From assembly GCA_943736015.1 (NCBI GenBank), contig OX031060.1, positions 888,001-952,000 of the forward strand: 64,000 nt of DNA, read 5' to 3'. The notes under the pieces were generated by a model that was given only the letters and a program-made list of their open reading frames with translations, was not told the DNA's origin and searched no databases. Each line of letters starts with the position of its first letter. The first letter of the stretch is position 1. Positions 173-63,340 of the stretch are shown piece after piece. Source of the stretch: Tridacna crocea. Its lineage: Eukaryota; Mollusca; Bivalvia; Cardiida; Cardiidae. The position numbers and the translations under genes were made by a program.

Positions 173-3100
173 CTGAAATTATAAATAAACCACATGTCAA
201 CCATGGTTTTTAATCCTATGGTACTTGACACACAACAATTCACATGATTTTCATTAACCCTTTACCACACAATGATGACTTTTAACAACCCTAAGAAAGA
301 GGCCTTTGGAAAACTTTGTGGGAAAAGGAGAAAATGCTGGTAACCAGCATTTTCTCCTTTTTCCACAAAGTTTCCTACTCAAACAAAAATTGCATCATTT
401 GAGCCACTATAAATTATCGTCTGTAAATGCTTTAGAGTTAAATTAGATCTAAAATCATGCTGTCTGGTAATGGGTTAAATGATTATTTGTCATTGAATAC
501 ATAGAAACCATTGTGTGAAGAGAAGAATATGCTGGTTCCCACCATATTTTTTATCCATTCACAAACAAATTTCACAATTTGAGCATCATGTAATTTGTTA
601 TCTACAGTATTTATGTACCTCTTACTTCCTATTTTAACTTATATTTCTGCTTCTTCAAGGAAATGGGGAAAATGCTTGTTTACAGCATCTCCTTTACCCA
701 AAATGTTTTCACCAGTTACCAGCATTTTCTCCTTTTCCCACAATGTTTTAAAAAGGCTCTTCTTCCAGAGTCACTTAAATATGGGATTGTATGGTAAAGA
801 GATGAACAAATACTTATATACATACCACTGGTCTGAGTGTAGGTTTCAGAGTGTTTCATAGCATCATCCAAAATTCTTAGAATCTGCAAGGGGAAAAAGA
901 CTATAATATTACAAGAAGTTTAAAAAAAAAAACAAAGTCCAATTTTAAGTAAAAATGAAACACAATGTATTCAAGCCTTGAAACAACTTTATTCTCTGTG
1001 TCATTCAATAAAATGTTAGGTAAATGCACTGATGACACATCATATGGTTGTTTATTTTCCCCACAATGTTTTCTACTCTTCCAAAGAACAAAATTAGCTG
1101 AAGTGAAAGCAGACTAGATCTGAAAAAAACTAGAGCTATTACTAAACATGATTATACCCACCACCATCTCCTGGTCACAAAAACAGGTCTTTGTCACAAA
1201 ATGCAGAATGGTCTAGTACAGAAGTAAGACTTGAAAAAAGTTCAAGGGGGATAATTCCGCGACAAATCGCAGCATAGTCATGAAAATTGCACATGCACAA
1301 CTTCATATATATATAGGAACCCTATGTGTAAAATCAAGTTCAGTACGTGAAAAACTGATGGAGTATTGCTCACGACAAATTTGTGTTTACAGACAGATGG
1401 ACTGATAGACAGACAGACTGCCATGGCGATTCCAGTATACCCCCTCCACTTCGTTGTGGGGGATACAAAAACTCCTAACCTCTTTGGACAATTTCCCATG
1501 ATCAAAGACAATATAGCCCATACTTACCATCTGTAATAGGTGACTGTTCTTGAACATGTGTACCAATAAAGTGAAACCTGCAGGTTTGCTAGCTAACATT
1601 GTACCCCCAGACTGCAACTCTAGTACATGGTCTGTAAAGTGGTCCCCTTGTACTTCATAACTGTGCAGAATTTTACGAAGGATACTTAAGCACAGGCTTG
1701 TTACCTCCCACTAGGAAAAGAAAGAACTAAACTGTTCATACTTGAAATTTAATACTAATCTAATATAAAAAAACTTGCAACCTCAAATTAAAAGAAAATT
1801 CTGTGGTAATTATTGGTCGCTCCTTGTGAAATGGGGGTTGACAGCTTCCTCGCAGGCAGACTGTGGTCGAAAAATTCTTGCTTTTTGTAAATATCCAGCA
1901 CATCAAAAGACCAGTCTAGCTTATGTTCCAGTCTCTGTTGACCTTTCCCAAATAATCCTTGGTTTTCATGACCCTGAACAGGTAGCCTTTTGAAAACATT
2001 GTGGGAAAAGAAGAAAATGCTGGTAACCAGCATTTTCTCCTTTTCCCACTATGTTTTACAGCCATCCCAAAACAAATTTCAATTTTTTGAGCCACATTAC
2101 TTTTGTTGTCTGCATATGCTACCACTTTGGACTAGTCTAAAGTTTTGAAATATTTGCTGACACAATTTCAAATTGGCTCAATTTTTCTTTAAAAAGGTAG
2201 AAAACATTGTGGTAAACAGAGAAAAAATGGTTACAAGCATTTTCTCCTTTTCCCACAATGTTTTAAAGTCTTCTGACATCCCTATGGTCATTTAAAGCAG
2301 ATATTTTATGATAAAGGATTCAGATCGATTTTCAACATAATTTCTGGTACATTGCAGCAGCCAGTGCACCTATCCATGCTTTCCTGGAGTCTCCTTTACC
2401 AGTACTTCTCACTATTTTCTTTCCAAGCCCCTGGCTACTTTTCCACATAAATATTGTCAAGAAAATGGTCAGCACTGGGAAAGGAATGTATCCTGTTTCA
2501 ATGTCTGTCATCAATCCTCAGAAAGTAAATTGGCTGAGCCAGGGATCAAACCCATAACCCCCTGTTCTCAAGTGCTGCATGCGACAGACAGAGCTACCAG
2601 GACTCGGCAAAAAGGTTAACTCATTTCCAAACAACAAAACTTTAGGTTTGTCCAACTCAAAAGCATTTGCAGACGACAAAATAAAAGGGACTGAAAATTT
2701 GAAATTTGTTTTGTGAAGGGTAGAAAACATTGTGGGAAATGGAGAAAATGCTGGTTACCAGCATTTTCTCCATTTCCTACAATGTTTCTTAAATGGTACT
2801 TTCTCAGGGTCGTCAAAAGTAGGGATTGTGTGGTAATGGGTTAAGAAGAGCAGAGGATATACAAACCCTCTCTCCTGGATTCTTGTATGCCCTGCTGCCT
2901 GACTTCAAGAAAACATCATCCCTGATGTATTGTAAATAGGGCTCAAACCCGGGCACCCTAGATCCTGCCCCTAGGGCCGCTGGAACTGGGGTGTCAGTCA
3001 AAATATCTAGAAACTCCAGAAAGCCCTTGGTTATTGGATACTCTTCATTGCGTGACTCCACCTCTTCCAACTCTACTTGTATGCCACCCGCTTGTTTCTC

Positions 3101-6100
3101 TCCACCAGTCGGCACTGTTACCAGGATCTACAAGATAGTGAAAATGTGCTTAAATTTTTCTTAGAGGCAAGCAGTTTTTTATGCTTCTGAAGACAGGTTT
3201 TAGAAATTATTTTGAGAAAAGTACAGTTTCTACACCTAATAATATAAGAGCAATACAACAACACCCGATAGGCATTATATCTCTTCTGTTCAAATGTAAA
3301 TTACGGAACATCTGTACATGAAAATTTAAAAATTTTGTACCCTATAAACAGCTAAAAAATCTGACCTGAGACGCTTCCAAACTGAGCCAAAGTGAGGCTG
3401 CGATGTCCGACGTCTTACACAAGGCAGCCAAAAGTTTTAACAGCTCTGACTTCATCTGTGGGGGTACACTGCAAGTGATCAGTCCAAACATCGTCATGGA
3501 AACAGACCAATGCTGATTCTCAAACACAGCAAATCTACAGTACTCATTCTGAAAGATTGATATCGTGTTGATAAACTGGAATCCCATTGAAACATAGTAG
3601 CAGGGAGTCACATTTAGCAAGCCATTGTAACACTTTATCACCTATTCATTTTATTTTAACAACCCTTGAGAAAGAGAACTTTTGAAAACATTGTGAGAAA
3701 TGGAGAAAATGCTGGTAACCAGCATTTTCTCCTTTTCCCACAACATTTTCTACCCTTTCAGAGACAAAACAATGGATTTTTGCTACATTTTCATCTGCCA
3801 ATACTTTCATTATGGGCCACCCAAAATATTTTTGTTGTAAGGTGAAGTCAAACAAGGTTAAAATGAATGAAACATCTGCTATCCCTATTCACATTCTGCC
3901 AATACAGTCTACATACTGATGGACAATAATGTTTACATAATTATATGCTACCAAACCTTCATCCTCATTATTATCAAATTCACATACAATACACATGTAC
4001 AGCCCAAACATGTAGTGTTTCATCATTATGCTTTGTGAATGAAAGTTACCCTGCAGAAATAAAGGAAATTTGTTCTTACAAATTTACACAGGCATCTTTA
4101 ACTCTTCACTAAACCTCAAGCTTTTTGCAAATTGAAAGCATCTTTGTGCAATAATTTTAACGTGGCTAGAACTTCACTAGTTGACTGTGAAGGAGTAAAC
4201 ATTGTGGGAAAAGTAGAAAATATACACATTTTTTCCTTTTATCACAATGGTTTCAAAGCTTTCTTTCCCGGGATTGTTGGAAGTTGGGATTGTGAAATAA
4301 AGAGTTGGTTGTACAAGGGCATTTTTCTAAACTGTGTCAAAAATATCCTTGTTATCATGAGTTCCCATTTCAATACTTAACGAGAAATCCTATTTGAATT
4401 AAATATATTCAGCAATGACAGAGATATCATAAAATCCTGAAGTTACTGCACAACCATGCAGATGATTGATAATGCTAGGGCATTTTCTTCAACACCAGCT
4501 GAATTAAAAATGTAAAAAAACAAAGGCCTGGCAAAGAGGCCCATATTATGCCTTGTCAGTGAAATGGATTAAAAACTAGACATCTATACAGATCTTTATT
4601 TTAACTCATTACCTAATAAGAATATTTTTAGGCTTGTCCAAATTGAAAGCATTTAATGACGACAACATGAAATTTACTGAAAATTTGAAACTTGTTCTGT
4701 AAAAAGTAGAAAACATTGTGGGAAAAGGAGAAAATGCTGGTTAACAGCATTTTCTGCTTTTCCCACAATGTTTTCTAAAGGCTTCTTTGCCAGGGTCGTC
4801 AAAAGTAGGGATTGTGTAGTAATGGGTTAAAGTCACATGCACTATTATACACCACAGAGATTAATTATTGTGAATTTCAAATTATTCCGACGAAAACTGT
4901 AGTCGGAGTTGCGAACACAAGAAATTGCTAACGGAAGGATGGACAACTACGGCTGTAACATAATATCACCCTTCCAGCATACAAAAACAGCAATGGCAAT
5001 ATTTGTCATGCTATCATAAAAAGATATTTTCATCTCCTTTAACCCTTTCCCAAACGATAAACTTTTGAACTAGACCAAATTGAAAGCATTTGCAGACGAC
5101 AATTCAACTCTTGCTGAAAAGATGATGTCTTTCTATGATAGGGTAGAAAACATTGTGGGAAAAGGAGAAAATGCTGGTTACCTACATTTTCTCCTTTTCC
5201 CACAATGTTTTCAAAAGGCTACTATTCCAGACCAATAAAACCAGGGATTGTTTGAACAAAGTGATAGAAATTGGATTGTTTCAAATCTATGCAATACAGC
5301 TACCTATAGTTTAAATTTTTCACATTTTACAAAAATCATATGTTTCTATAACTCCTACCAACACAACAAAATCTAAGACCTATCTAAATCGAAAGTCTTT
5401 GAGGACAACAAATCAAATGTTATTCAAATTAGGAATGTTGTCTTTAAAAGACTGGAAATTATTGTAGGGAAAAAGGAGAAAATGGTGGTTACCAGCATAT
5501 TCTCCTTTTCCTAAATGTTTTCTGAAGCTCTTTTTATGGACTTTGTTAATAAAAGTAGGGTTGTACGGTGACGGGTAATCACTAGACAAACTCTAGAACT
5601 ATAAATAAGCCATACTCTGACAAAAACAGACATGCAACTGCTAACCACATCAGCCTGCGCTGTCTGCGCAGGCTGCCCTTGGCCAAAACTTTTCACTATT
5701 GGTCAATTTTCTGTATGACAAGGGCCAGTCTACCTCTTGGATAGGTCTGTTGTTACACAAAATGGATATTACAGATCTGTTATGTGATGGCTTGCTTGGC
5801 ATCATATTTTACAGAGAAGCATTAAGCCCTGTTTTGCCAGAGCCTGACTGACATGTATCACCTGTTCACAAATAACCCTGACAAGTTTGATGACGGCAAC
5901 CAAACCCTCCAGTTCCTGTGGAGTGATGGCTCGCGTTGATGTCCTGTGAGTGAATGTAGAATCTGCAATACCAGGAGTGTCCCGTCTTAAACTGCTGTAG
6001 TACTGATGGAACGATGTAAAAATGTGGTCCAATGACACGGTGCTGGATGTGTTACCTGAAACATGAAAAAATATTAACCCTTAGGCTGCCAAGCAGCACT

Positions 6101-9100
6101 AACTGACCTTTTGCTGACAGTGTAGATTAAGATCAGACTGCACATAACACACAGTCTGATCTTGGGCCTATGCAGCCATATGAAGAAGATTTGTAATTCT
6201 CAAAACTGAATCAATTTGAAATAACAATTTCTGGGTTTTTACCACAGGTTTGTGAGTTTTTATACCACAGGTCTGTCAGTTTTATATAAGTTATTTAGCA
6301 GTATAGCAATTAATTCTTTATTTCCCTATCTTGTCTATTAACCCTTTATTCTACTAATTTTAACATCTCTGACAGGAGTCTTTTGAAATCATTGTTGGAG
6401 TAGGAGAAAATGCTGTTAATCAGCATTTTCTCCTTTTCCCACAATGTTTTCTACCCTTTCCAAAACAAAGTTTGAAAGTTTAGTAATTTCCATTTTGTCC
6501 ACTGCAACTGTTTTCAATTCTGACCAGTCCAAAATTTTGTTTTTTGGTAAAGAGTTAATGAATACCATATCTTTTTCTTATGTTGTAATCAAATGACCAC
6601 CATTGCTACCATACAGACATTTTACAAACTATCTTGAACAGTTTTATACCTGGGTAAAAATGAAGGACAACCAAGTCCGCAGTGGATTGTACACATTGCT
6701 ACATAAGTTCATCTGCAGCCCTTTCTAAACCTTATCACATTTCAAATCACCTTGATTTCTGACTTTTGGCTGATCTACTGCAGTCCTGCAGAATGAGTAG
6801 ATTGAAATAGAGAGCAATGGTGTGAAAAAGGGAATTTACAAGATTTGTTTGGCAAACTGTACTGGTTACATGTGATTTTTCAACACTGATTTTTCAGCAT
6901 ATCCAACACATAATTATATAAAACATACATACCATTAATTTTCAGTAGATTATAGCAGTGATGTGCACAAGGATTGTTGTTGGCCAGCCCTGTCAGCATA
7001 TTTATATACGGGACATATAGAGATGGGGGTAAAAGGTCACCAGCCATTCTTACAAACTTGTACAGGGCTACCTGAAAAAGTATGTTACTTCATTAGATAC
7101 CTGCAAGCTTTCTGGCTAAATACAATATTACACATGAGGATGAATGAATGTTTGTGAGTTTTAGTAAGTTATCATGAGGGTGAATGAACGTTGTTTTATG
7201 GGAAATTGATAGCTTTTGTCATTTTAGCAGTCTTTGATCTATGATGTCTACTTTACTGAAAATCTGTAGACAGAAAGAAACCACTAAATTGCAATTTTCT
7301 GGTCTTATTCTTGACTGAAAATGCCCATTAGGGTTTTTGGCACTTTAACCCTTTCCCAAACAATCCCTGTTTTTTACGGGTCTGGAATACTAGCCTTTGG
7401 AAAACATTGTGGGAATAGGAGAAAATGCTGGTAACTAGCATTTTCTCCTTTTCCCACAAAGTTTTCTACCCTATCATAGACAGAAATAATCTTTTCAGCA
7501 AGAGTTGAATCGTCGTCTGCAAATGCTTTCAATTTGGTCTAGTCCAAAAGTTTGTTGTTTGGGAAAGGGTTAAATTCAACAGGTTAACCCATTAACACAC
7601 AATTCTTACTTTTGAGGATCCTGAGAAAGAAGCATTTAGGTAACATTGTGGGAAAAGGGGAAAATGTTGATAACCAGCATATGCTGATAACCAGCATTTT
7701 CTACTTTTCCCACAATGTTTTCTACCCTTCATAAAACCAATTTCAATTTTTGGTCACTTTTATTTTGTTGTCTGCAAATGCTTTCGATTTGGACAAGCCT
7801 CAAATATTGTCGTTTGGTAATGAGTTAATAAGAAAGACAAACGCTCACTTGTTTCTGTGGAGGTCGTCTGTGAAAAGATTCATACTGATTCCCAGTCTCA
7901 GGTGGACACCAGTATTCCACAGACAGTTCTAGGTTCAGTGGATCTTTGATGTACAGCTCATAAATCTGCAAAAATACAGTAAGGTATCTAATATTTCCTT
8001 CCTGCCTAGCACAGCTCTCTGTTTTGTCACCCTCAAGTTACAGTAAAACAGTAAACACAATCTCAATTGGAAACAACAAAGAAACTGTTGACCAATACAT
8101 AATAAACCGACCAAACTGACAGATTATAAAGAGATTATTCTAACTCTTTACCACAAAATTCCAATTTTTAATCACCCTGCAGAAAGAGGCCTTTGAAAAC
8201 ATTGTGGGAAAAGGAGAAAATGCTGCTAACCAGCATTTTCTCCTTTTCCCACAATGTTTTTTTTACTTTGTCAGAGACTAGCAGTTAACCTCATTATTTG
8301 AGTCATGTCTAGTTTCTCCTCTATAAAAAGTTCTAATATGGATGTCTCTAAATTTTTGTTGACGAAAGGATTATTTCAGTCATGTTCTTCAAAACCCCAG
8401 CACAAGCTTTAACCATATTTATTTTACATCCATTGAGAAACAGTTTCTGACAACTTTTACTAAACTCTTTCCATTCTGCTTTCTAGGAACTGCACCAGTA
8501 TTCCTGCAGAATGTGAGGGCCAATGAACAAATTCCCAAAGCTGACATTCAGTCCTGAGTCTCAAACCTGGTAACAAGTCAATACCATTTTCAGCATGTGT
8601 TCAAAATCACGTCTCAGGTTTCCCGGTGGTTCTTGTCCCTCATGTAAATGTGCAAGTATAATTCTGGCTGTTTCATCACCATGGTTACGGATCTCTTTCA
8701 CCTGTACAAAAATAAGCAAATACAATATTGTTTAACTGCCATGTTTTTTCACCTTGCTGCAGTTCACTTTATTATCCAACTATCATTTATATAATAATTA
8801 TTTACTTTTTTACCTTATTTTGCTGGGAAATAGTGCTGACTTTTGGTGCTCAAGTACATTATCAAAGAAAGTATGAGATTCATGACTAATTAATTTATAT
8901 GAGATGCAACAGGTGATTTTTGTCGTATTTTTGCTTGCTGATACCCAATCATATTATTTCATACTAAGCTAACCATTCAACACTTTATCGAGCAATCCTG
9001 AGTACCAACAACCCCTGAAGGACTGGCATTTTCTTCAGTAATAAAGGCTCTGTAAGCATCGTGAGAAAAGGAGAAAATGCTAGTGACCCAGAGGTTTCTC

Positions 9101-12100
9101 CTTTTTCCACAATGCTTTCTTCCCTATCAAAGAAAACTTCTACAATTTGAGCCACACTCAGAGTTAACTCTTTACCACACAATCTCCACTTTTAACAACC
9201 CTGAGAAAGAAGCCTTTTGAAAACATTATGGAAAAAGGATAACCAGCATTTTCTCCTTTTTCCACAATATTTTCTATCCTTCCCTAAACAAATTTCAAAT
9301 TATGAATGACACTTATCTTGTTCTTGTTTTGTTCCTTAGATAAGGTCTAAAATTTTGTTGTTTGGAAAAGAGTTAGACTTCACCAAAACAAAATACATCT
9401 TTACAACATCTCACAACAATCTTGTAACAGGTACATGGTTATAAAACTGTTATCAACTCAAGTATGAAATTTTTTCAAAAGCTAACAGATTCTCACCTTC
9501 AAAGGAAACTGATAGATGAAATCTGTTAAAAGTCTGTGTACTTTTGTCAGGTAAAACTCCTGAAGAAAAAAAAAGAGGTTATAGGAATTCAACTTAATGG
9601 CCAAGAACTATTGATAGACAAGGCTATATTTCAGGTCTGACATAAAAATTTGAAACAAAATTTTATTGATTCTAGAAAAAACATTATTAAGCATGCCTTG
9701 GCAGGCTTAAAAGATTTTTTAGACAAGTTTAGCAAACTTATTCCTCAAGTCTATGGCAACTGATATTCTTTTGATAGAACATGCTTCATCACCTGATGAG
9801 ACTTAAAGATAAATAGAAAATTTAACAGGGGTAGTTTTTCTTTGTGGAACATTAACCCTTGATCAGACTGGCTTACGGATATGTAAGAGAAAATGGACAA
9901 ACACATGCAAAGCTCACATGATTGGTTTGTGGAGCGAAGAATGACTGCCTGAGTACCACACATATAAAGGAAAGAAAACAGTACTGGATTATAAACGGTC
10001 TTTTATCGGATATCACTGTAGGAGTAGCAAACTTGTACTAGATAAAACAGAAATGCAATGCATGAGAACCTGACAAAACTTTCTTCCAACGTACAGTGAA
10101 CAGAAATATACCATACACCAAGGTCACAGGGTACTGGTTGCCACAGGTTAAAATAGTCAGACGCATCCAAAATTTGCAATTTGCATGTCTCTGCCTGACT
10201 TGTCCCAAGGAAATTTTTTAACATGCTCAAAACTTCCCATCAGACAGAACAGATGTGGTCGGACAAGTAGCAGATTCACTGGATAAGAAACGGACATAAA
10301 ATTGATACAACCAGGCATAAACTGATAAAATGATTTTATATCCATTACACCTCCATTTAGCTTGCTGTGACCAAACCTTTTGATAAATGTGAAAGTGTGC
10401 AAGGGCAGTGTATTCCTTGGAGGCAATTTTCCTTGTAGGTAGAGTTGCAAGGGGCAGTTCTTGGAAGGGCAGTTTTCCTAAAATTCTAAATTATTTATAT
10501 TCTTAGATTGTTTTACCATGTTCCTCAAAAAAACTGTCACACAGTCTAAGTCTAAATCAGACTGCACAATTTAAGCATTTTGAGTCACAAAGTTGCTCTT
10601 TTATTCATCACCAAGGGTCTGGAAGAGATCTTATTAATTAACCCATTACCACACAATCCCTACTTTTGACGACCTTGAGAAAGAAGCCTTTAGAAAACAC
10701 TGTTGGAAAAGGAGAAAATGCTGATAATCAGCATTTCTCCTTTTCCCATAATGTTTTCTACTCTTCACAAAACAAATTTCAAATTTTCAGTCCCGTTTTT
10801 TTGTCGTCTGCAAATGCTCACGATTAGGGAAAATAAATTTTGTCATTTGGTAATGAGTCAAGAAAACCATCACTTCCACTTATAAGGGGCTCTGAACTAC
10901 CAAACAAAGTTTTGACCTATACACTACCTCCTTGTGAAATTTGTTGATAGATATGACAGATGTATGTAGAAACTCGAACACATCCGACTGGACAGCTAGA
11001 TCTAACAAAGTCTCATCTTCCTCATAGTATTCTCCAGCACCTGTTTGTTCAATAAATGAAAAATTTTTGGAAAAGCATCTCCATTAGCTCTCTATTACAC
11101 AAATAACACTGGGAAAGAAGAATTACGAAAACATGGTGGGAAAAGTAGAAAATGCTTTTAACCAGTAACAACACAACATTTTTTAACCTATCATAGACAA
11201 ATTCCAGCATTTGAGCCACACTTAAATTTTCCTCTACAAATATTTTCAATTTGGCAAGTCTAAACTTTTGTCATTTAGGTTAAGAGTTGAGACTATCCAT
11301 GCTACATTTGGAAACTAGTCGTATACAATGGTGGTCTAAATGTTGACAATCTCAGCATCCATCTGGATTTGGACTTGAACTGTTGTTTCTCAGTGTACAC
11401 TTCCTTCATTGTAAACAAACTGCCCACCCATGTAACTCAGTAGTTAGCATATCAGACCTGTGACCTGGTGGTTGTGAGCTTGATACATGGTTGAGACAAA
11501 CTTTCTTTCCTGCTGTTTTTCGCCTCTCACCTCAGATGCATATGAGAAAGTAGTATAACTTAGAAAGAAAGTCATGCCAGTATTGGTTTAAGAGAGCTAA
11601 GAAACACTTGTGTAGGTGCACTGGCTGCCATGATATGTCTAAAATTATTAAACAGCACAAAACTTTTATTCAATAAGACAAGCTAAATAACTTGCTTATT
11701 ACATCACTCATTAAAACGACATAAAGAATATTAAAATGTGCAATATAACTTAAATAGCAAAACTATAATCACCCAGTCTTACACCCAGTCTTACACCCAG
11801 TCTTACACCTGGTACAACAATCATTCAGACATCTAGACCCTGTGCACATACTGACCAAAACTATCAATGAAGTCTGGTATCAAACGTTAAGATCCCAGTC
11901 AAACAAAGTCGGCCAAGTTAGAACTTACCAGCAGCAAACGGGTATTGGGATAGTTGCCGTAAAGTAACCCCCCACGCAAACTGGGCAACAGCTTTTAACT
12001 CCGGAATCTTCCATTCAGGCCCCTCCTTCAACTCTTTGTGTATGTCTGCTATGTACTGAGCATCGGCTAGTATTGGCATGCTCTGTCTAGTATCTGAATC

Positions 12101-15100
12101 AATCACATTTATTTACAGTTTTACTACAATTAATTAATTGACAACATACATGTGTATATCAAAATCAGACCAAACGGTATAAGTTATCTTAAATATCTTC
12201 TGTCCCAAATGTTTTCATTATGTACCATATGACAAAAATGTACTCATATCCAAACTGAAAGCATATCCATACAACAAGTTAGACTTGGCTCAATTGACTG
12301 AATAAGTTCTTGAAAGGATACAAAAGATTGTGGGGAAAGGAGAAAATGCTGGTATACAGTACATTTTTCCCCCTTCATTGTTTTCTAATCTTTCATGGAA
12401 AAATCCCATTATTTTGCCAAATCTATTGTTGTCTGCAAACCCTTTCAATTTGGATTTGTCTAAAATTTTGTCATGTGTTAAAAAGCTTAAGGATAATGTT
12501 TATCATTTTAGATCAAAACCCAGTTGGCTATGTTGGTAAACTCTTCCCAAACCACAAAATTTTGGACTAGTCCAATTCAAAGCATTTGCAGACGACAAAA
12601 TAAATGTGAATCAAAAGCTGAAATTTGATTTGGAAAAGGGAGAAAACATTGTGGAAAAATGGAGAAAATGCTGGTAACCAGCATTTTCTCCTTTTCCCAC
12701 AATGTTTTCAAGGGCTTTCTTTCTCGGGGTGGTCAAAAGTCGGGATTGTGTGTAAAAGAGTTAAGGTGGTATGACCACTAAATTGTATCTATCAATACCA
12801 ATCCACTTTTTTAGTAGCATCTGATCATTATTGGATCCAATTCCAATCTTGATCTCTCCATTTTTGGGAATTTACTGTGCTCTTTTAATTTGTAAATTGT
12901 TTAACCCTTACCAGATGACAGAATTTTAGCCCTGTCCAAATTGAATGCATTTGCAGACGACAATTTCAAAATGGCTGGAATGGTGCAATTGTTTGAAAGG
13001 GTCGAAAACCTTGTGGGAAAAGGAGAAAATGCTGGTTACCAGCATTTTCTCCATTTGCCACAATGTTTTCAAAAGGCTTCTTTCCAATGGTTGTCAATAG
13101 TCATCTTTGTGTGGGAAAGGGTTAAATGATATTAATCATTGTTTTTTTCCCTAATCCTACCTGCAAATATCATAGCAATCGATTTAGAAATCACTCCATC
13201 TATATTCAGAAAATTAACTATAACATTGATTTTCTAGTAATGAAAACACATATTATGGCTGAAGTTATAACAAACTGTGTAAAACATATTGGCAAAATGT
13301 TTTCAGAAATATTCCCAATGCCATGCTAAAAAAAGAGTGTGGCGGTTGGTTTTGTTGTTTTCTGGATTCCACTGCATACTTTTTCCTTTGCATGTTTACA
13401 ATATTTAACTCTTTATCACACAATCCTGAATTTTAACAACCCTGAGAAAAAAGCTTTTTGAAAACCTTGTAGGAAAAAAAGAAAATGCTGGTAACCAGCA
13501 TTTTCTCCTCTTCCCACAATGTTTTATACCCTTCCCACAATGTTTCATACCCTTCCTTAATTTTTGAGCCATTTATTTTGTCATCTGCAAATGCTTTCAA
13601 TTTGGACAAGTCTATAGTTTTGTTGTTTGGTAAAGAGTTAAAAAGTAAAAATCTACCTTCTGCATCTTCTCTCTCCATAATGGAAACATCAAAACAGTAT
13701 AGTAAAGCCATCAGCAATGTCAGTGTAACTGGGTGGAGGGTGTTGTTGGCTTGTAACATGTCGTCTTCTTTCAGATGGGAAATGAGCTGTAGTGTGCCGT
13801 TTTTACTGAAGGGTCGTTGACAAGCCAAGCAAAACAAGCATTCTGCACAGGCTACCTGAATCTCCTCATACATGTCTTTTACCTACAACCAATTAAAAAC
13901 GATAAATGCTTACAGTATACAATGTGATCCTCTTCTCACAACCTTGAGAAAGAAAAACTTTTAAAAATATCACAAAAATGAAGAGAAAACGCTGATAACC
14001 AAAATTTCAATTTTATCCTTTTTCTACGGTGATTAGCACCACAAATCCCATCAGTTTAGTCTATCCTTACGTGTCATATGCAAATAATTCCAAAGTGGAT
14101 GAATCAAAAACTGTATCCTCTGGTAAATAGCTGACTCTTTAACCCTTAAAACTGTTAAATAACTAAAAATGACATTTTCAATTAAATACTACAAACCCAA
14201 ATATTGCTGTTTTAAGCTATGTTCTGCGGAATGATATCTCCTTATCAGACAGTGTAGATCCAAGATCAGACTGCATGTTCTGTGCAGTCTGATCTTGATC
14301 TACATTGTCTGCAAAAGGTCAGCAAGTCACGCTTAGCAGTCTAAGAGTTAACTCTTTACTACAAGTTGTTGCAGATAAAAAATTAATTGTGGCTAAATCA
14401 ATGATACATGACTCAGAAAGGGTAGAAAACATGGAGGAACAAGGAGAAAAGGAGAAAAACTTTGTTGCCAGCATTTTCTCCTTTTCCCATGATGTTTTTA
14501 AAGGTTTTAAGTGTTGTTTTAACTTAAAATGATGTAGCAAGGGGCTAATAGAACATTAAGATCAGTCAACAATGAACATTCAGAATGAGACAGATCTGTT
14601 CTTCACATAAAATTCCATTCTAAAATTTACTTTGAATTAAAAAAATTCAGACTGGGAGGGGTAAAATTTCCTTTGAATTCAAAAAATTCAGATTGGGAGG
14701 GGGTAGTGTTTTTTAATCTAAATAAAAACGTCAATTTTCTTAACCTTTAAGCATTTTAAGAGTAACACAAAAATAGTACACTGAATAAGTTTTTTCTATC
14801 AGTTAAACTTTCCATGAAAAAAGGTTGCTCAATAAAACACTGCCATTTCCAGAATAGTTTCCAATGCCATCAAATCTAACACCAGGACCTACCTGTTTCT
14901 TATATTTTGCGGGGCCAAGAGCTCTGTTGTTCTGAAGTTTCTCTAGTTCTTTAGTGACATCCATATCTTTTAAAATGCCTTAAGAAAAAGATAACATGAT
15001 CTTAACTCTTTTCCACACAATGACAATTTTTGATGACCCTGAGGTAGAACCATCCTCGGATACCCCAGGGTCTCCCTATTTGCTACGCTACATCGACCCC

Positions 15101-18100
15101 TGGGACAATTAATTGAATTTCCCTCGCTTTATCGCTGGCCGAATGCTGGCTTTTCATTGGTTCCATCATCATTTTGTGATGGGCGAGTCGATGTACGCTA
15201 TGACATTTCGTATCGATTTTCGGCGGCTGATTCAAAGTTTTATTAGTCAATTGTCCCAGGGGTTGATGTACCGTAGCAAATAGGGAGACCCCGGGGTATC
15301 CGAGGATGAGGCAGAAACCTCTTGAAAACATCGTGGGAAAAGGAGAAAATTTATTTTGTTGTCTGCAAATTTTTTCAATCTGAACCACCCTATAAATTTG
15401 TCGTTTGATAACAAGTTAACCTATGTCCTGCTAAATAACTATAATGAAATTTTCCGTACGGGAGTAAAAATCCTTATATTTCTATTCAAAAAAAAAGTTT
15501 CGGGGAGAAATATCTTCTTCTCGGACAGTGTGGATCTGAGATCAGACTGCATGTTCCTTTTCCCACAATGATTCCACAACCCTTCGCTCTCCTGTTTGTT
15601 TTAACACCTAATTAGGTAAAGGCCTTTAAGGGTTTAAAGTACCGTAACATGGAAAGAAAATAATTATAATCATATGCTTCTTCTCTCAACATAGTTTCTT
15701 AATTTTTCATTGGCCAGGGCCTAAAATGTAATTTTTACTGAGAGGGCTTCACCCATTACCATACAATCCCTACTTTTGACAACCCTGAGAAAGAAGCCTT
15801 TAGAAAACATAGTGAGAAAAGGAGAAAATGCTGGTAACCAGCATTTTCCTCCTTTTCCCACAATGTTTTCTACCCTTTAGAAAACAAATTTCAAATGTTC
15901 ATTCCCTTTTAATTTGTCATTTGCAAATGCTTTCGATTTGGAAAAGCCTTAAATATTATTGTCTGGTAAAGAGTTAAAGTTTTTACCCAGGATCTGGTTA
16001 ATTAACCCATCATTGACCAGCAGTCCTTCAATAAATTTGTTGGTCATTTCTATAAGGTCAGGAGGAAGGTCCAGTGTAAAGGTGGGTCCTTCTAGGGAAC
16101 ACAGCAGGGTCCTGAGTGCAGTGACCAGACTTCTACGACCATCATAGTATAGCATTACAGCAACAAGTCCACGGGTAAGTCCAGGAAAATTAGGCATGTT
16201 GTCCTCACCTTGAAAAAACACAAAAATTATAATAGTGAAATCTTGGTACATGTCTTTTAGATGAAACTGCATACCAAATATTACAGCTCTACAGCTCAAG
16301 ACCAAATGGTGGAATCAGAAGATCTTTGATTTTACACAAAGCTCCTTAAATTTTTTATACACCAATAACCTCCCACCCACTGCCACCAACTTCTTCTCCC
16401 TAGAGTGATACCAATTTTGACCTCAGGGAAATTTGTACAATTTGGTAGAGGTCTCAGGCATCATATCATATTCCATACTATCTGTAAATTCCTAAATTTT
16501 TTGCCAAATGCTTTAAAATAAAAAAAATTTAAAGTTTCCACTGTACAAACCCACACAAAGTTGTGACCTCCCATGACCATGCCATATGGCCAATTTCAAT
16601 ATTACTTCTAAGATTTTCAAATTTCAATTTGTGACCAGTCTAAAATTTTGTCGTTTGGAAAAGGGTTAATCAAACAATTCCTCATTTTTACAGCCCTGAG
16701 ATAGAAGCCTTTTGAAAAAAAAATGAGGGAAACCAGCATTTTCTCCTTTAACCACAATGTTTTCCACTGCTGGAAACAAGTTTCAATTTTTGAGTTGAGT
16801 TTATTTGGTCGTCTGCAAGTGCTTTCAATTGAGACCAGTCTAAATTTTGTCATTTGGGAAAGGGTTAACTCATTACCACACGAGAAAATTTTGGACTGGT
16901 CCAAATTGAAAGCATTTGCAGACGACAAAAATAGAAATTTGTTCTGGAAAGGATAGAAAACACTGTGGGAAAAGGAGAAAATGCTGGTTACCAGCATTTT
17001 CTCCTTTTCCTACAGTGTTTTCAAAAGGCTTCTTTCTCAGGGGCGTCAAAAGTAGGGATTGAGTGGTAAAGGGTTAAACATACCTGCCACTAACAGCTCT
17101 AGAGCTGCTATTTCATTTAGATCAAACAGGTCACTGATGATAATGGCCTCTTCAATCATGCTGTCAGGAAAGGTTTGTGTGTGTTGTTCACCATGTACGG
17201 GCAATCCAACAGTATTAGACTTCTTCACCAAGTCTCTGTGGCCAGCATTTTTTGGCTGTAAAAATGGACCGATTTAATGTATTGCATTTGACACAATTTT
17301 CAACTTTAATTCAGTTATATTGTAGCTCCAGTACACCTAGGCCTAAGAAGAAATATCTGTGTTTAGGGTTTCAGTCCAAGATGCTGTAGGTAGGGTAGGT
17401 AGAGATTTTTTTTCTTCCAAAAATTTTTTACATAGAACATAAAGTGAATTTTTACCAACAGATAATTTTTTTTTCAATCATGGCGAAAAAAGTTTAGGAT
17501 CTGCAGCATTTTCTAGGTAGGGTACGGAAACCCTTAACACAGACATTTTTTTTTAAGGCCCTATCTGTGCTTTCCTGGGGTTTCTTTTACCAGTACCCTG
17601 TACAAAATTCTTTCCAAGTTACTGGCTGCATTTCTACATAACTATCATCCAAACAAGGGTCTGCTGTGAGGAAAGAATGTATCCTATCACAATGACTATC
17701 ATCCATCAAGACAAAAACAAAATGGCTAAGCTGGGGATAGAACCAGTGAGCTTCTGTTCTCGTCCTGTATCAACTAAGCTACTGTGGCTCAGTGGCTGCA
17801 AGAACTATTTATGAACTCTTAACCAAACAACAAAATTTTAGACTGGTCCAAATTGAAAGCACTTGCAGATGACAAAATAAATGTTACTCAAAATTAGAAA
17901 TTTGTTTCCAGCAGGACAGAAAACATTTCGGGACAAAGCAAAAATGCTGGTAACCAGCATTTTTTCTCTTTCCCACAATATTTTCTACTCTATATCAAAG
18001 TCAGAAATCACCATATTTCCAAGATTTCATTTGTTGTCTGCAGCTGCTTTGAATTTGGTCCAGTCCAAAACTTTATCCTTTGGTAATGATTTAATCAAAC

Positions 18101-46310: not shown

Positions 46311-46850
46311 TTCTGTCATTGATAGGATAGAAAACATTGTGGGAAAAGCAAAAGATGCTGGTAAGTACAAGTAGTGACTTCTGTCATTGACAGGATAGAA
46401 AACATGGTGGGAAAAGCAGAAGATGCTGGTTGGTACAAATAGTGACTTCTGTCTTTGATTAGGACAGAAAACATTGTGGGAAAAGAAGAAAATGCTGGTT
46501 AGTACAAATAGCGACTTCTGTCTTTGATTAGGACAAAAAACATTGTGGAAAAAGCAGAAGATGCTGGTTAGTACAACTAGTGACTTCTGTCTTTGATTAG
46601 GACAGAAAACATTGTGGAAAAAGCAGAAGATGCTGGTTAGTACAACGAGTGACTTCTGTCATTGACAGGATAGAAAACATTGTGGGAAAAGCAGAAGATG
46701 CTGGTTAGTACAGTAAGTGACTTCTGTCATAGACAGGATAGAAAACATTGTGGGAAAAGCAGAAGATGCTGCTAAGTACAGATAGTGACTTCTGTCATAG
46801 ACAGGATAGAAAACATTGTAGGAAAAGCCGAACATGCTGGTTACTCGTAT
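46310..46850 (-). repeat. 68/69-bp tandem array from half of an FB-A palindrome, 8 units
   Basis: AAAACATTGTGGGAAAAGCA-type starts at 46331, 46399, 46468, 46537, 46606, 46674, 46742 and 46810: spacing 68, 69, 69, 69, 68, 68, 68. Each unit has one arm (to GATGCTGGT) and no second arm, followed by TAGTGACTTCTGTCATTGAC-like spacer. Confidence 0.96.
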
Positions 46851-46897
46851 ATGAGCCATGTTTTGAGTAAAGGGAGTTCAATGCATCTCTGTAGCCA

Positions 46898-47102
46898 GCA
46901 CCACACAATCCCTACTTTTGACGACCATGAGAAAGAAGAATTTAGAAAACATTGTGGGAAAAGGAGAAAATGCTGGTTACCAGCATTTTCTCCTTTTCCC
47001 ATAATGTTTCCTACCCTTCACCAAACGAATTTCAAATTTTCAGTCACTTTTATTTTGTCGTCTGCAAATGCTTAAATTCGACTTGGACAAACCTAAAATA
47101 TG
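46898..47102 (+). repeat. FB-A foldback element
   Basis: CACACAATCCCTACTTTTGA flank, palindrome 46946-47008, right end truncated near CTAAAATATG. Confidence 0.88.
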
Positions 47103-47157: not shown

Positions 47158-47388
47158 TTAACCCATAGGCTGCTGAGTAAAAGTATTAGGGACTCTGAGA
47201 CAAAAACCTTTTTGAAAACATTGTAGGAAAAGGAGAAAATGCTGGTAACCAGCATTTTCTCCTTTTCCCACAATGTTTTCTACCCTATTGAAGACATGTT
47301 CCATCATTTGAGCCACATTAGAATTGTCATCTGCAAATGCTTTCAATTTGGAATAGTCTAAAATTTTGTCGTTTGGTAAAAGGATAAA
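47158..47388 (+). repeat. FB-A foldback element with FB-B-like left end
   Basis: Starts TTAACCCATAGGCTGCTGAG, an FB-B terminal sequence, then FB-A palindrome 47213-47280 and right flank; a chimera. Confidence 0.82.
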
Positions 47389-47822: not shown

Positions 47823-48123
47823 TAACTCTGTACCAGATATTACGGCAATAATTTAGTATGTTCCAAATCGAAAGCATTAAGTCCTGCATTTTCTTCTTTT
47901 CCAACGATGTTTTCAAAAGGTTTCTTTTTCAGGGTCGCGAAAAACAGACGGCAAAATTAATGTGATTCAAAAATTGAAATTTGGTATGAGAGGGTAGAAA
48001 ACATTGTGGGAAAAGGAGAAAATGCTGGTTACCAGCATTTTCTCCTTTTCCCACGATGTTTTCAAAAGGTTTCTCTCTGAGGGTCGTGAAAAACCAGGGA
48101 TTTTTTTTTAGGAAAACGGTTAA
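47823..48123 (-). repeat. Two fused FB-A copies
   Basis: A truncated copy (47823-47940) runs into a second (palindrome 47996-48062), both ending with the CAGGGTCG(C/T)GAAAAA flank; right TTAA at 48120. Confidence 0.8.
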
Positions 48124-49860: not shown

Positions 49861-50087
49861 TTAACTTTACCAGACGACAGAATTTTAGGTTTATCCAAAT
49901 CGAAAGCATTTGCATGCAGAAGGCAAAATAAAAGTGACTGAAAATTCGAACATTTGTTTTGGGAAGGGTGGAAAACATGCGAAAAGGGAAAATGCTGGTT
50001 ACCAGCATTTTCTCCTTTTCCCACAATGTTTCCTAAAGGCTTCTTTCACAGGGTCGTCAAAAGTAGGGATTGTGTGGTAATGGGTTC
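49861..50087 (-). repeat. FB-A foldback element
   Basis: TTAACTTTACCAGACGACAG left end; palindrome 49971-50032 with a small left-arm deletion; right end GGTAATGGGTTCA. Confidence 0.88.
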
Positions 50088-50741: not shown

Positions 50742-50949
50742 TTAACCCTTGGGTTACTGGGTGGGCTTTTGTGGCCAGTGTAAATCAAAATCAGACTGCA
50801 CAGAACGTGCTGTCTGATCTTTGATCTACACTGTCCGATAAGGGGATATCATTTCCCCAAAGTAACTTTTGAAATAACAAATTCTGGATTTTTATTCTCG
50901 GTTTTGAAAATTCATTTCCACTTATTTAGTTTGATAGTATACTAGTTAA
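50742..50949. repeat. FB-B foldback element, full length
   Basis: TTAACCCTTGGGTTACTGGG; palindrome 50779-50831; right TTAA shared with the next FB-A copy. Confidence 0.9.
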
Positions 50950-51145
50950 CCCATTACCACACAATCCGTATACTTTGGGCGCCCTGAGAAAGAAGCCTTT
51001 AGAAAACATTATGGGAAAAGGAGAAAATGCTGGTAACCAGTATTTTTTCCTTTTCCCACAATGTTATCCACCCTTCCCAAAACAAATTTCAAATTTTCAT
51101 TTGATTTGGACAATTCTAAAATATTGTCGTTTGGTGAAGAGTTAA
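50946..51145 (+). repeat. FB-A foldback element
   Basis: TTAA ends; palindrome 51001-51064; a deletion removes the GTCTGCAAATGC block from the right flank. Confidence 0.9.
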
Positions 51146-51159: not shown

Positions 51160-51389
51160 TTAACTCTTTCCCAAATAACAAAATTTTAGACAGGTCCAAA
51201 TTGATAGCATTTGCAGATGACAAAATAAACATAACTCAAAAATTGAAAATTGTTTCTGGCAGGATAGAAAACATCGTGGGAAAAGGAGAAAATGCTGGTT
51301 ACCAGCATTTTCTCCTTTTCCCGCAATGTTTTTAAAAACGCTTCTATCTCAGGGTCGTAAAAACCAGGGATTGTTTGGTAAAGGTTTAA
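51160..51389 (-). repeat. FB-A foldback element, full length
   Basis: TTAA ends; palindrome 51268-51331, arms GTGGGAAAAGG/CCTTTTCCCGC. Confidence 0.92.
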
Positions 51390-51813: not shown

Positions 51814-52042
51814 ATAACCCTTTGCTAAACAATCCCAGGTTTTTAGCATCCTTTATCAAGACCTTTTGAAAACATTGTGGAAAAAGGAGAAAATGCTGGT
51901 AACCAGCATTTTCTCCTTTTTCCACAATGTTTTCTACCCTGCTGGAAACAAATTTCAATTTTTGAGTAATGTTGTATTTCGTCGTCTGCAAGTGCTTTCA
52001 ATTTGGATCAGTTTAAAACTTTGCCGTTTGGTAAAGGGTTAA
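51814..52042 (+). repeat. FB-A foldback element with mirrored arm change
   Basis: Palindrome 51870-51932 has GTGGAAAAAGG and CCTTTTTCCAC, both arms changed identically; right TTAA intact. Confidence 0.92.
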
Positions 52043-53479: not shown

Positions 53480-53920
53480 GCCATCTAGTGGGAGATAATG
53501 TCATACAGTCCGATCTAGCGGGTTCTAATTTCAACCCTGCCAGTGGTTCCAACTTTTCAAAGCCTTATTACACCTATAAAACTAATACGTGTATACATGT
53601 GTTCGGTTCCGTTGGCTTTTGTAATTTCGCGATATGAATGAAAGTGACTGACATCCATTATCGCCTTGCTACTTGCTGTACAGAAATCTGAGAAACTCAT
53701 CAGCCGAGCTCATAAACCCTGTACATTATGCAGACGACTTTGGTTACCTCTGAAACGGACACTTTGGAAACATTGTAACAAATGATGCAGCTGTTCCGAA
53801 ATTGAGCAGTTTCTTTATTGACTTTTGAAGAAATCAATCTAGACACAAGCTAAATAAATCCTACTCAGTTCTGATATTCTTGTCTATACATGTATAGAAG
53901 CGTGTATATGAAAGTTTGGC

Positions 53921-54150
53921 CTTACCAAACAATCCCTGGCTTTTACGGCTCTTAGAAAGAAGCCTTTTGAAAACATTGTGGGAAAAGGAGAAAATTCTGG
54001 TAACCAGCATTTTCTCCTTTTCCCACAATGTTTTCTACCCTTCCAAGGAAAAAATTTAAAAAATCAATGTTTTTAGTCTCATTAATTCTATTGTCTGCAA
54101 ATGCTTTCAATTTGGATAAGTCAAAAAATTTGTAGTTGGGTAAAAGGTTA
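53921..54150 (+). repeat. FB-A foldback element
   Basis: CCTTACCAAACAATCCCTGG left end; palindrome 53977-54038; right end GGTAAAAGGTTA. Confidence 0.88.
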
Positions 54151-55560: not shown

Positions 55561-56109
55561 AGATTTTAAGACTGGGTGAAAAGATTTAGCAACGGATAAA
55601 GGGAAGATAAGAAATGATGACATGATAACCTTGTCTGTATTGTTTTGTTAAACCTGGATCCTGGTTTTACACATTGTCCAAATATAATTTATAATGACTG
55701 TATTTATCATTTTTATACATGTACGTGTGTATTATTTGCATCAGTGAAAACTTTTAAGAGATTTGTAAAAACCATTATCTTCCCAGTATCGTCTTTTTTA
55801 GTTCTTTCTCGGAAAATAATTTCAATTTAGTTAGCGTAAATTTCTTTAAATTGCATTTTTATTTAATTATTGTCTTTATTTCTAAAGAAGATTGAATTTG
55901 TTGTACTATTGGATCGTTATAATAATTATGCAGTCAATAGACCAGTAACAAACTGTACAAAATAAGCAGTCTGATCCTGGGCCGAATCGGTTTTATTTAA
56001 TGTGTCGAAATTCTTTTGGCTTAAAAAAATTGACGTTGCAATATCAGTATGTGACTGAAATCAGCAGAAAACAATTTGCGTTTTGGGAGTATTGATATGA
56101 CACGTACAG
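55561..56109. other. No gene seen
   Basis: AT-rich; an FB-B scrap near 55940-55985 (AAGCAGTCTGATCCTGGGCC). Confidence 0.5.
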
Positions 56110-56328
56110 CACACTCCCGAATTTCAACGGCCCTGCATAAAACCTTGTGTAAACATTGTGAGAAAAGGAGAAATACCAATATCCAGTATTGTTTCCTTTT
56201 CTTACAATGTTTTCTACTCTTTTAAAGTGAAGAATATCAATTTAGCTACATTTAATTTATTTTCTGAAATTGCTTTTTTTTTAAAGTTGGTGAAGTCAAA
56301 AAGTTCTCCATATAGGAAAAGGTTTTAA
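56110..56328 (+). repeat. FB-A copy, decayed
   Basis: Palindrome 56151-56212 with mirrored loop changes (ACCAATATCCAGTATTG); right end GGAAAAGGTTTTAA. Confidence 0.75.
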
Positions 56329-58440: not shown

Positions 58441-58463
58441 AGTTGATGAATTCATATTAATGG

Positions 58464-58525: not shown

Positions 58526-58557
58526 ATAAAGGCTATTAATTTTGGTCAATTTCGTAT

Positions 58558-58787
58558 CTTTACCCTTTATCCCATATGGCATATCTATGGCATCTCTAAT
58601 TGAACCTAAATAACAGCAAGGATGAAGCCGTTTCTTATGTGTAAATGGCACCTTTTTATAGCATAGAAAACATTGTGACAAAAGGTGAAATTGCTCGTCA
58701 CAAGCAATTTCAACTTTTGCCACAATGTTTTCCAAAGGCTCCTACAAGCAATGTGTAGAAATGAGTATCTATGGAGTAAAGGGTTAA
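58558..58787 (-). repeat. FB-A2 foldback element, full length
   Basis: Same flanks as 20464 in opposite orientation; palindrome 58662-58730 (ACAAAAGGTGAAATTGCTCG). Right TTAA intact. Confidence 0.9.
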
Positions 58788-61430: not shown

Positions 61431-61439
61431 AACTTCTGC

Positions 61440-61641: not shown

Positions 61642-61687
61642 TGCAATTGATTATAACTAACATTGACGGTTTTGATACTAAATTAAG

Positions 61688-61892
61688 TCTGTACCAAACG
61701 AAAAATTATTAAGACTGGTAAAAATACTTACACATCGTAAATCTTTTGTGTCGAAAATGATCAACTTTGTCTTAGAAAACGTCTGAGGCATCATTGGGAA
61801 AAAGGGAAATGTTGGTTAGCAACGTTTCTCCTTTTCCTTTAATGTTTTCAAAAGCACTCTTCTTAGGGTAGTTGAAATTCAAGATTGTTTAA
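61688..61892 (-). repeat. FB-A copy, decayed
   Basis: CTGTACCAAACGAAAAATTA left; palindrome 61790-61850 with partly matched changes (GGGAAATGTTGG / CAACGTTTCTCC). Right TTAA shared with the next copy. Confidence 0.75.
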
Positions 61893-62117
61893 CTCTTCAC
61901 CAGAGAATCCCGACTTTTGACTACCCCGAAAAGGGAGCCTTCTGAAAACAATGTGGGAAAAGGAGAAAATGCTGGTAACCAGCATTTTCTCCTTTTCCCA
62001 CAATGTTTTCAAACATTTCCAGAACAATCTACAGAATTTAAGTCGCATTAAATTTGTCGTCTGCAAATGCTTTCAATTTGAACCAGTCTTAAATTTTGTC
62101 GTTTGATATAGGGTTTA
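61889..62117 (+). repeat. FB-A foldback element, full length
   Basis: TTAACTCTTCACCAGAGAAT; perfect palindrome 61949-62008; right end ATATAGGGTTTA. Confidence 0.92.
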
Positions 62118-62291: not shown

Positions 62292-62520
62292 TTAACGCTT
62301 TCCCAAACAATCCCTGGTTTTTATGGATCTGGAATAGCAGCCTTTTGAAAACATTGTGGGAAAAGGAGAAAATGCTGATAACCAGCATTTTCTCCTTTTC
62401 CCACAATGTTTTCTACCCTATCATAGACAGAAATCATCTTTTCAGCAAGAGGTGAATTGTTGTCTGCAAATGCTTACAATTTGGTCTAGTCCAAAAATTT
62501 GTCGTTTGGGAAAGGGTTAA
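62292..62520 (+). repeat. FB-A foldback element, full length
   Basis: TTAA ends; palindrome 62346-62411; right-flank subtype shared with 7345 and 34864. Confidence 0.93.
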
Positions 62521-62594
62521 CGCCCGGACGACAAAACTTTAGAATTGTCTAAATTGAAAGGAATTTTGCAGACGAGAAAATAAATGTAACTTAA
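62521..62594 (-). repeat. FB-A flank fragment
   Basis: CGGACGACAAAACTTTAGAA to GCAGACGAGAAAATAAATG, ending at the TTAA of the next copy. Confidence 0.7.
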
Positions 62595-62818
62595 CCCATT
62601 ACCACACAATCCCTACTTTTGACGCCCCTAAGAAAGAAGCCTTTGGAAAACATTGTGGGAAAAGGAGAAAATGCTGCTAACCAGCATTGTCTCCTTTTCC
62701 CACAATGCTTTCTACCCTTCCCAGATCAAATTCCAAATTTTCAGTGAGTTCTATTTTGTTGTCTGCAAATTCTTTCAATTTGGACGAGTCTAAAATTTTG
62801 TCGTTTGGTAATGAGTTA
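62591..62818 (+). repeat. FB-A foldback element, full length
   Basis: TTAA ends; palindrome 62645-62709 with one right-arm change (CATTGTCTCC). Confidence 0.93.
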
Positions 62819-62967
62819 AACATTGAAATTTGCCCAGGGCAAGGAAGAAAACCTTGTGGGAAAAGAAGGAAATGCTGGTTACCACAATATTCTCCTTTTC
62901 CCACATGTTTTCGAAGGCTTCCTTTCTCGGCGTAGTTAAAAGTCAAACTTGTGTAATAAAGGGTTAA
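62815..62967 (-). repeat. FB-A copy with deleted left flank
   Basis: Shares TTAA at both ends with its neighbours; palindrome 62846-62915 eroded. Confidence 0.85.
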
Positions 62968-63075: not shown

Positions 63076-63129
63076 CGTGAAGTATATTTGTCTGAAGAAC
63101 AGATGATATGCAATATTTTGTGTATTACC

Positions 63130-63340
63130 TGTAGACAAACTCAACTAAGCCTTGGAATTTTAGGCCCTTTCAAATTGGAAGCATTTACAGGTTACATGTT
63201 TACTGTTGCTTAAACGATTAGAGTTATCTTCAAAAAGTAGAAAACATTGTGGGAAAAGGATAAAATGCTGCTTATCAGTATTTTCTCCTTTGCCCACAAT
63301 ATTTTCATAAGCCCTTTTCCCAGGATTCTTCGGAAAAGGA
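63130..63340 (-). repeat. FB-A copy
   Basis: CAAATTGGAAGCATTTACAG flank; palindrome 63240-63305 with paired loop drift (GCTGCTTATCAGTA). Confidence 0.8.

Follow-up and report, generated by a model that had tools for sequence, protein, structure and literature searches.

The 64-kb stretch of Tridacna crocea DNA analysed here (contig OX031060.1, positions 888,001 to 952,000 of the forward strand; hereafter the window) holds many copies of a short mobile element that is bounded by TTAA and carries a 67-bp palindrome in its interior. The palindrome forms a hairpin with co-changing arms at a fixed distance from both ends of the element, which suggests that the hairpin helps the element to spread.

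Copy number and architecture

The arm of the palindrome has 107 matches in the window (≤3 mismatches), against 0.03 expected in shuffled sequence. There are 47 two-armed palindromes, or 71 loci once single arms are included. Hidden Markov models (HMMs) of the families marked 75 stretches after merging; 46 exceed 180 bp in length, and some contain two copies. HMM hits cover 21.7% of the window and 13.5% of a genome sample; reversed sequence gave none. A 20-mer of the arm has 553,439 + 551,312 matches in the 1.049-Gb genome (≤2 mismatches), against 14 + 9 for the reversed control. The genome sample consisted of 19 stretches of 10 kb (a twentieth was dropped because its contig was too short), 17 of which were taken at 5 Mb of a contig and which are thus not strictly random; its 190 kb contain 126 palindrome loci, one- or two-armed, with three stretches having none, and this scales to about 0.7 million loci genome-wide.

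The consensus of 104 copies is 229 bp long and consists of TTAA, 51 bp, the 67-bp palindrome, 103 bp and TTAA. Similarity between these copies drops sharply outside both TTAA edges, and the left and right flanks differ from each other. The consensus ends, CCCTTTACC, are of CCCTTT type, and the terminal repeats CCCTTTACCACACAAT and CCCTTTACCAAACGAC are alike at 13 of 16 positions. The palindrome arms are 33 bp long. The base between them is A in 52, T in three, G in one and a gap in one of 57 young copies of family A (see below), and G in 14, C in five, T in one and A in one of 21 copies of family B.

A first-pass annotation of the window had described a single family, FB-A, of foldback type, with TTAA ends, terminal repeats of about 16 bp, unlike flanks and central arms of about 32 bp. 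The many copies with TTAA ends and a central palindrome, the terminal repeats and the unlike flanks were all found again; the arms needed lengthening by one base, several flank families replace the single one, and eight single-arm hits at 46.3-46.8 kb proved to be one tandem array. The label 'foldback' was dropped. Foldback elements, such as Tm1, carry large inverted repeats that fold back and occupy a terminal position; in the present element the long repeats lie in the middle, and those at the termini measure only about 16 bp.

Flank order was read for 152 palindromes, after removal of loci L002 and L003, which overlap L001, from the HMM, flank and later counts. The arrangement is left flank, palindrome, right flank in 102, and 42 have no recognised flank on one or both sides; one has mirrored right flanks, none mirrored left flanks and seven other combinations. 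Since the order is intact in 102 and mirrored in one, recombination through the palindrome can have swapped flanks only rarely, if at all.

Families and geometry

Flank type separates families A, B (21 copies) and C (7 copies); 14 of the B and six of the C copies were picked by an exact 12-base end together with the first 13 left-arm bases, and the rest came from the sample. With TTAA included, the left part, palindrome and right part measure 55/67/107 bp in A, 55/67/107 bp in B and 55/67/108 bp in C (229, 229 and 230 bp in total). The consensus palindromes are identical at 58 (A-B), 63 (A-C) and 62 (B-C) of 67 positions. In gapped alignments of the right flanks, 41 of 94 columns are alike between A and B (157 of 200 shuffles as high), 44 of 93 between A and C (93 of 200) and 52 of 97 between B and C (2 of 200). 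The A-B and A-C right flanks are thus at the level of shuffles, and those of B and C are weakly related. Without gaps, A and C agree at 27 of 91 positions (497 of 1000 shuffles as high).

The same spacing recurs outside the consensus copies. Among the first 100 of 39,999 genome-wide matches to the left half, 81 have exactly 55 bp, and among the first 100 of 20,066 matches to the right half, 57 have exactly 107 bp (control 0 in both searches; all these halves lie on one contig, C1). Around 131 sampled palindromes there are 133 end signatures, 55 of them at 55 bp and 31 at 107 bp. The palindrome centre lies 84.5 and 136.5 bp from the two ends, which at 10.5 bp per helical turn corresponds to 8.0 and 13.0 turns.

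A fourth flank type, D, was seen at a single tandem locus (L001, positions 1358-1998), an array of whole palindromes and a short spacer repeated at about 143 bp. Its arms mismatch at three of 33 positions, and it was left out of the comparison of the A, B and C consensuses.

Conservation of the palindrome

Copies were found again with one flank only, which gives less ASCERTAINMENT (ascertainment) bias, the flank profiles themselves having been built from the 104 copies first found by palindrome. Only complete matches away from locus edges were kept, leaving 156 of 178 for the right flank and 136 of 144 for the left. Identity to the consensus in right-flank-found copies was 0.85-0.87 for the arms, 0.70 for the left flank and 0.76 for the left end; in left-flank-found copies it was 0.90-0.91 for the arms, 0.74 for the right flank and 0.71 for the right end. 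Across all copies the palindrome is better conserved than flanks and ends.

A young A set comprised 57 of 60 fetched copies of one subfamily, picked by their last 66 bp and scored at non-CpG sites (L040, L049 and L084 were excluded from the change counts). Changes shared between its copies number 95 in 3705 arm sites, against 102 in 1862 and 139 in 2325 in the two flanks. Within this subfamily the centre is kept better than the flanks, and the left end at least as well as the centre. An artefact, produced by mixed families and by searching with the palindrome, is very improbable: copies and flank profiles were indeed first obtained through the palindrome, and several flank families exist, but the contrast holds for copies found by the left or the right flank only, and it recurs within one subfamily when arms and flanks are compared by their shared changes.

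Paired arm changes and hairpin folding

All arm differences between the family consensuses are mirrored: four of four between A and B (arm positions 14, 21, 26 and 31), two of two between A and C (26 and 31) and two of two between B and C (14 and 21). These four sites are base-pair flips (A-T to T-A, G-C to C-G). The flip pattern, like the helical phasing of the centre, is based on a small number of events, and one of the mirrored changes within A, T8C, does not conform to it. Of 80 copies considered for covariation, 69 could be placed as palindromes of 67 bp and 11 could not; two of the 69 (L046 and L054) were then omitted, which left 67 aligned palindromes, 60 of them distinct, with pairing in 96.3% of cells. 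The covariation score is 0.129, against 0.051 ± 0.004 in shuffles (0 of 500 as high) and 0.020-0.034 with slid partners. Two-sided changes occupy 67 cells in 11 pairs, a count of copies and not of events, against 16.0 ± 3.4 cells after shuffling and 4-8 with the partner slid by 1-3 columns. The wider sample, in which some loci enter twice, holds 51 symmetric changes against 15.0 when permuted; arm positions 8, 26 and 31 account for 26 of them.

Folded as single-stranded DNA, the A, B and C palindromes each form one hairpin of -37.2 to -38.3 kcal/mol, 14-16 standard deviations beyond shuffles; given this narrow range, the base-pair flips should leave the modelled stability nearly unchanged. As RNA the palindrome folds at -53.2 kcal/mol, and the hairpin might act in that form, folded transcripts giving rise to small RNAs that aid the element or are used by the host. 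The near-perfect 33-bp arms, the folding energy and the pairing maintained by covariation are in favour of such a role. Unpaired cells, however, show no G.T excess on the given strand (30 G.T, 41 A.C, 35 other), an Rfam search of the window returned no match at gathering score, and a fixed distance to the transposon ends would not be expected of an RNA hairpin. We consider an RNA function quite unlikely.

Timing of the constraint

Private changes in the 57 young A copies affect the arms (43 of 3705) as often as the left end and flanks together (58 of 5097; ratio 1.02, p = 0.92), whereas changes shared by at least two copies number 95 of 3705 in the arms and 256 of 5097 in the left end and flanks. 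The TTAA ends served as a decay clock with a known starting state. They mismatch at six of 216 positions (0.028) in 54 young copies (L040, L049, L084, L035, L070 and L086 excluded), whilst their arms are asymmetric at a rate of 0.027 per site. Among 91 sampled copies, the 48 whose ends are best defined give a TTAA decay of 0.039 and an asymmetry of 0.046 (ratio 1.17, 0.65-2.62). With private changes evenly spread in the young A set and asymmetry in step with TTAA decay, the constraint probably acts on active source elements and not on resident copies.

The same two results bear on the proposal that resident copies serve the host as a replication origin or a regulatory or structural site and that the palindrome is preserved for this service. 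Abundance and conservation would fit, as would the lower number of private palindrome changes in B and C. Yet, judged by the copies with well-defined ends and by the best-sampled set, most resident copies seem not to be preserved, and we give this proposal hardly any credence.

Correction is a third possibility: template switching within the palindrome at replication, or gene conversion from arm to arm, would restore symmetry. Mirrored changes do exceed chance (15 against 1.17 expected in young A, one against 0.22 in B, one against 0.06 in C), three of these 17 have alleles seen once only per arm, and pooled private changes are fewer in the palindrome. On the other hand, eight of the 15 young A changes are one subfamily marker, T8C, inherited from sources; private changes are equally frequent inside and outside the palindrome in that set; and the two arms of one copy mismatch each other (0.120) almost as often as arms of different copies do (0.141; some loci enter twice). 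Moreover, correction keeps symmetry but would hold neither the palindromes at 58-63 of 67 positions identical between families nor the spacing. We therefore regard it as an unlikely explanation.

Affiliation with piggyBac

TTAA is the target of both piggyBac and piggyBat. The genome contains at least 118 matches to the piggyBac transposase domain PF13843, some with open frames. Eleven transposase loci were read, six of which have complete TTAA-CCC ends of five kinds (CCCTATCCTCCAC, CCCATTTATGCC, CCCTTTATATAC, CCCTTTCAGYGC and CCCTWGTCATGC). Together with the TTAA and CCC ends of the short element, these domain matches indicate a piggyBac-type transposase. The element shows the TTAA duplication and 5'-CCY terminal inverted repeats of piggyBac-type miniature inverted-repeat transposable elements (MITEs), a transposase gene is present in the same genome, and the consensus of 229-230 bp is short and, judged by length alone, non-coding. 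On these sequence features, assignment of the families to a superfamily of very abundant, putatively non-autonomous piggyBac-type MITEs is well supported. Kolobok elements also use TTAA targets and occur in molluscs and other animals, with 5'-RR ends according to the available text of PMC9587614; the termini here are 5'-CC, and a Kolobok identity was rejected.

Two of the transposase loci carry palindrome-related sequence of their own. L089 (G000:C1:49494300-49498800) is a 4.25-kb piggyBac transposon with complete ends CCCTATCCTCCAC and several degenerate palindrome pieces, which are either old nested copies or an inherited feature. At L090, a piggyBac-type transposon carries the hairpin word CGTCCCCTTTTGGGGACG close to each end, at differing distances.

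Copies and other features of the window

Copy bounds in the window are those of HMM-marked stretches unless another basis is given, and palindromes are in brackets. The first family A copy, at 254-477 on the plus strand, reads TTAA, left flank, palindrome of 67 bp (309-375), right flank and TTAA. Other plus-strand A copies lie at 3628-3847 (3684-3750), 6340-6558 (6385-6451), 7345-7573 (7400-7466), 8141-8363 (8195-8261), 10638-10860 (10693-10758), 13405-13641 (13460-13526), 15749-15976 (15803-15870), 18756-18983 (18810-18876), 30234-30474 (30301-30368), 30725-30950 (30779-30844), 34864-35076 (34904-34970), 37857-38080 (37912-37978), 47162-47386 (47214-47280), 50946-51144 (51002-51068), 53920-54150 (53969-54035) and 62292-62520 (62347-62413), and the stretch 61684-62115 holds A copies on the same strand (61944-62010). 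Five more plus-strand A copies have individual marks: 7584-7828 has a 17-bp duplication inside its palindrome (7639-7722), 9164-9375 a shortened palindrome (9219-9274) and 18477-18700 the centre base T (18532-18598), 19193-19418 is near the consensus (19248-19314), and 51815-52042 shows the same change in both arms (51868-51934).

On the minus strand, A copies occupy 2616-2844 (2723-2789), 4602-4830 (4709-4775), 5039-5255 (5146-5212), 5349-5577 (5457-5523), 12539-12764 (12643-12709), 12903-13125 (13004-13070), 47883-48120 (47997-48063) and 51160-51389 (51267-51333), with an eroded one at 4099-4306 (4195-4254). Family B is represented by a plus-strand copy at 20464-20692, whose palindrome (20519-20585) has B-type arm changes and whose bounds were counted from the flanks, and by a minus-strand copy at 58559-58787 (58666-58732), bounded from its palindrome and the 55/107 spacing.

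Several stretches hold two copies: 1942-2320 (1992-2058, plus; 2200-2265, orientation weak), 16622-17077 with adjacent A copies (second palindrome 16956-17022, minus), 44016-44363 with adjacent minus-strand copies, where the palindrome at 44255-44321 has the same two changed bases in both arms, and 62523-62967 (62646-62712, plus; 62847-62913, minus). Eroded copies were found at 14360-14547 (14425-14499), 56106-56324 (56149-56214, plus) and 63146-63327 (63240-63306, minus), and single-arm copies at 11105-11288 (arm 11127, plus) and 12221-12486 (arm 12321, strand unassigned). The copy at 49865-50087 has one good arm (49968-50033), the one at 17813-18093 mirrored right-type flanks on both sides (17919-17985), and 13931-14131 is marked by HMM without a listed arm.

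A further marked stretch, 46090-46364, runs into the tandem array at 46301-46843 (plus strand), which has 7.9 units of 68 bp, each made of one arm and part of a flank; this array is a satellite born from half an element. A plus-strand copy at 46895-47100 (46945-47011) lies beside it.

Apart from these elements, an open frame of about 593 amino acids with DDE_1 and HTH_psq domains is encoded on the minus strand at 26376-28160, presumably by a pogo/Tigger-like transposase gene, and a second DDE_1 fragment occurs at 21627-22427. Mismatch counting listed no arm between 20.7 and 30.2 kb, around this frame. A 24-bp minisatellite (18 copies, 90% matches) at 35712-36146 contains an open frame with weak Pfam matches (best E 2.4e-7), which were taken as chance matches on repetitive sequence.

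Proposed role of the hairpin

We favour, as somewhat probable, the view that the element belongs to a piggyBac-type MITE superfamily in which the central hairpin and its geometry are cis-requirements for spreading. A piggyBac transposase acting in trans would cut and paste the element at TTAA, and the palindrome, at its fixed distance from both ends, would be a cis-acting part for efficient propagation. It may be a paired site bound by the transposase or by a host factor that keeps the two ends together, or it may extrude as a hairpin while the element is excised or replicated. Sources with disrupted arm pairing or altered spacing would leave few descendants, so that palindrome and geometry persist and flanks drift, and most copies would decay after insertion without further selection. 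A narrower claim, that the hairpin works as folded DNA in mobilisation, with the 33-bp pairing and the end distances maintained as such and not just as a binding motif, is possible but rather doubtful.

A number of results weigh against a cis-requirement for the hairpin, or limit it. Regarding conservation, the left end of the young A copies has 15 shared changes in 910 sites, fewer than the arms in proportion, and the ratio of palindrome to flank divergence in close pairs is 0.43-0.59 (some loci enter twice). As for timing, both B (20 of 1018 against 82 of 2977) and C (3 of 323 against 41 of 1015) have proportionally fewer private changes in the palindrome than elsewhere; the ratio of palindrome to rest, pooled over A, B and C, is 0.66 (p = 0.003), and the pooled contrast of private with shared changes is not significant (p = 0.52). 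TTAA decay and asymmetry differ in B (5 of 84 against 0.027) and in C (0 of 28 against 0.017). When copies with looser ends are admitted, the palindrome/TTAA ratio drops to 0.76 in 59 copies (0.51-1.24) and 0.50 in 67 copies (0.36-0.74). These opposing results from B, C and loose ends may come from small samples, in which inherited variants are counted as private, and from truncated copies among the loose ends. Ten of the 21 B copies share a change of the right arm only, at arm position 13 (G facing T), so an imperfect palindrome can spread. The right flanks of A and B are slightly alike when aligned without gaps (35 of 91; 11 of 1000 shuffles as high) and left flanks agree between families at 16-21 of 35 positions; the kept layout is thus partly shared descent. 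Finally, an autonomous partner with the ends of the MITE was not found at the 11 transposase loci read out of at least 118 matches, and the ends at these loci share little with it beyond CCC or CCCTTT. It is the left-end and the ungapped A-B results that lowered our confidence slightly.

The proposals of the first-pass annotation can be read in this light. Its claim that the centre is kept above the rest stands against both flanks and ends in copies found by one flank, and fails at the left end of the young A set. That the hairpin itself matters is borne out by the flank-found copies, the mirrored arm changes and the excess of two-sided cells. Among the causes it offered, transposition is the best supported, on account of the constant distance to either end and of a constraint that appears to act on source elements. 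Repair after insertion finds no support as the main cause, given the equal private changes in young A and the constancy of the arms between families, although the fewer private palindrome changes in B and C mean that a slow correction may take place.

Relation to known elements and implications

The annotation had also assumed that ordinary MITEs conserve their ends best, to which the CMITEs of Acropora corals are a published exception. As described in the available text of PMC2872659, these are short elements with TTAA targets and CC[C/T]T ends that are linked to piggyBac-like transposons; they measure 96-108 bp, number about 1600 copies in A. millepora, have a 75-bp interior that is more conserved between families than their ends, and occur in tandem arrays. 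TTAA, CCCTTT-like ends, a conserved interior and tandem arrays are thus common to both groups. The likeness is partial in two respects: here the interior exceeds the ends over all copies but not in young A, where the left end is as well kept, and the 68-bp array at 46301-46843 holds half elements. The coral elements are shorter and several hundred times rarer than the loci in T. crocea, and the words palindrome, hairpin and stem-loop are absent from the main text of PMC2872659. The 60-mer printed there folds weakly (-11.0 against -53.2 kcal/mol here), the two interiors being compared by folding only, whereas the interior in T. crocea is a 67-bp palindrome with mirrored changes and fixed spacing. 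Among the papers listed by literature searches on piggyBac MITEs, foldback elements and central palindromes, the coral CMITEs were the one close precedent, and a full-text search with four arm words gave a single, unrelated archaeal paper. The palindromic, co-varying and position-fixed interior, together with the scale, is new relative to CMITEs.

In piggyBac and piggyBat, an internal palindromic site near the left end (bp 19-30 in piggyBat) is bound by paired C-terminal cysteine-rich domains of the transposase dimer, according to the available text of PMC11707139. The palindrome of T. crocea differs in its length of 67 bp and its central position, separated from the left TTAA by 51 bp and from the right one by 103 bp; by analogy, it could act at its fixed end distances like the piggyBac/piggyBat site, or as a hairpin. 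If it works as folded DNA, this would be a DNA-secondary-structure requirement beyond the piggyBac description in that text, and would help to explain how a single superfamily came to occupy about one seventh of the genome sample. Should spreading depend on the hairpin, the natural variants, hundreds of thousands in number, would provide a test of the DNA structure requirements of a TTAA-type transposon. It would also supply a testable cause for the unexplained conserved interior of coral CMITEs, and help to account for the copy numbers that such tiny passive elements attain.

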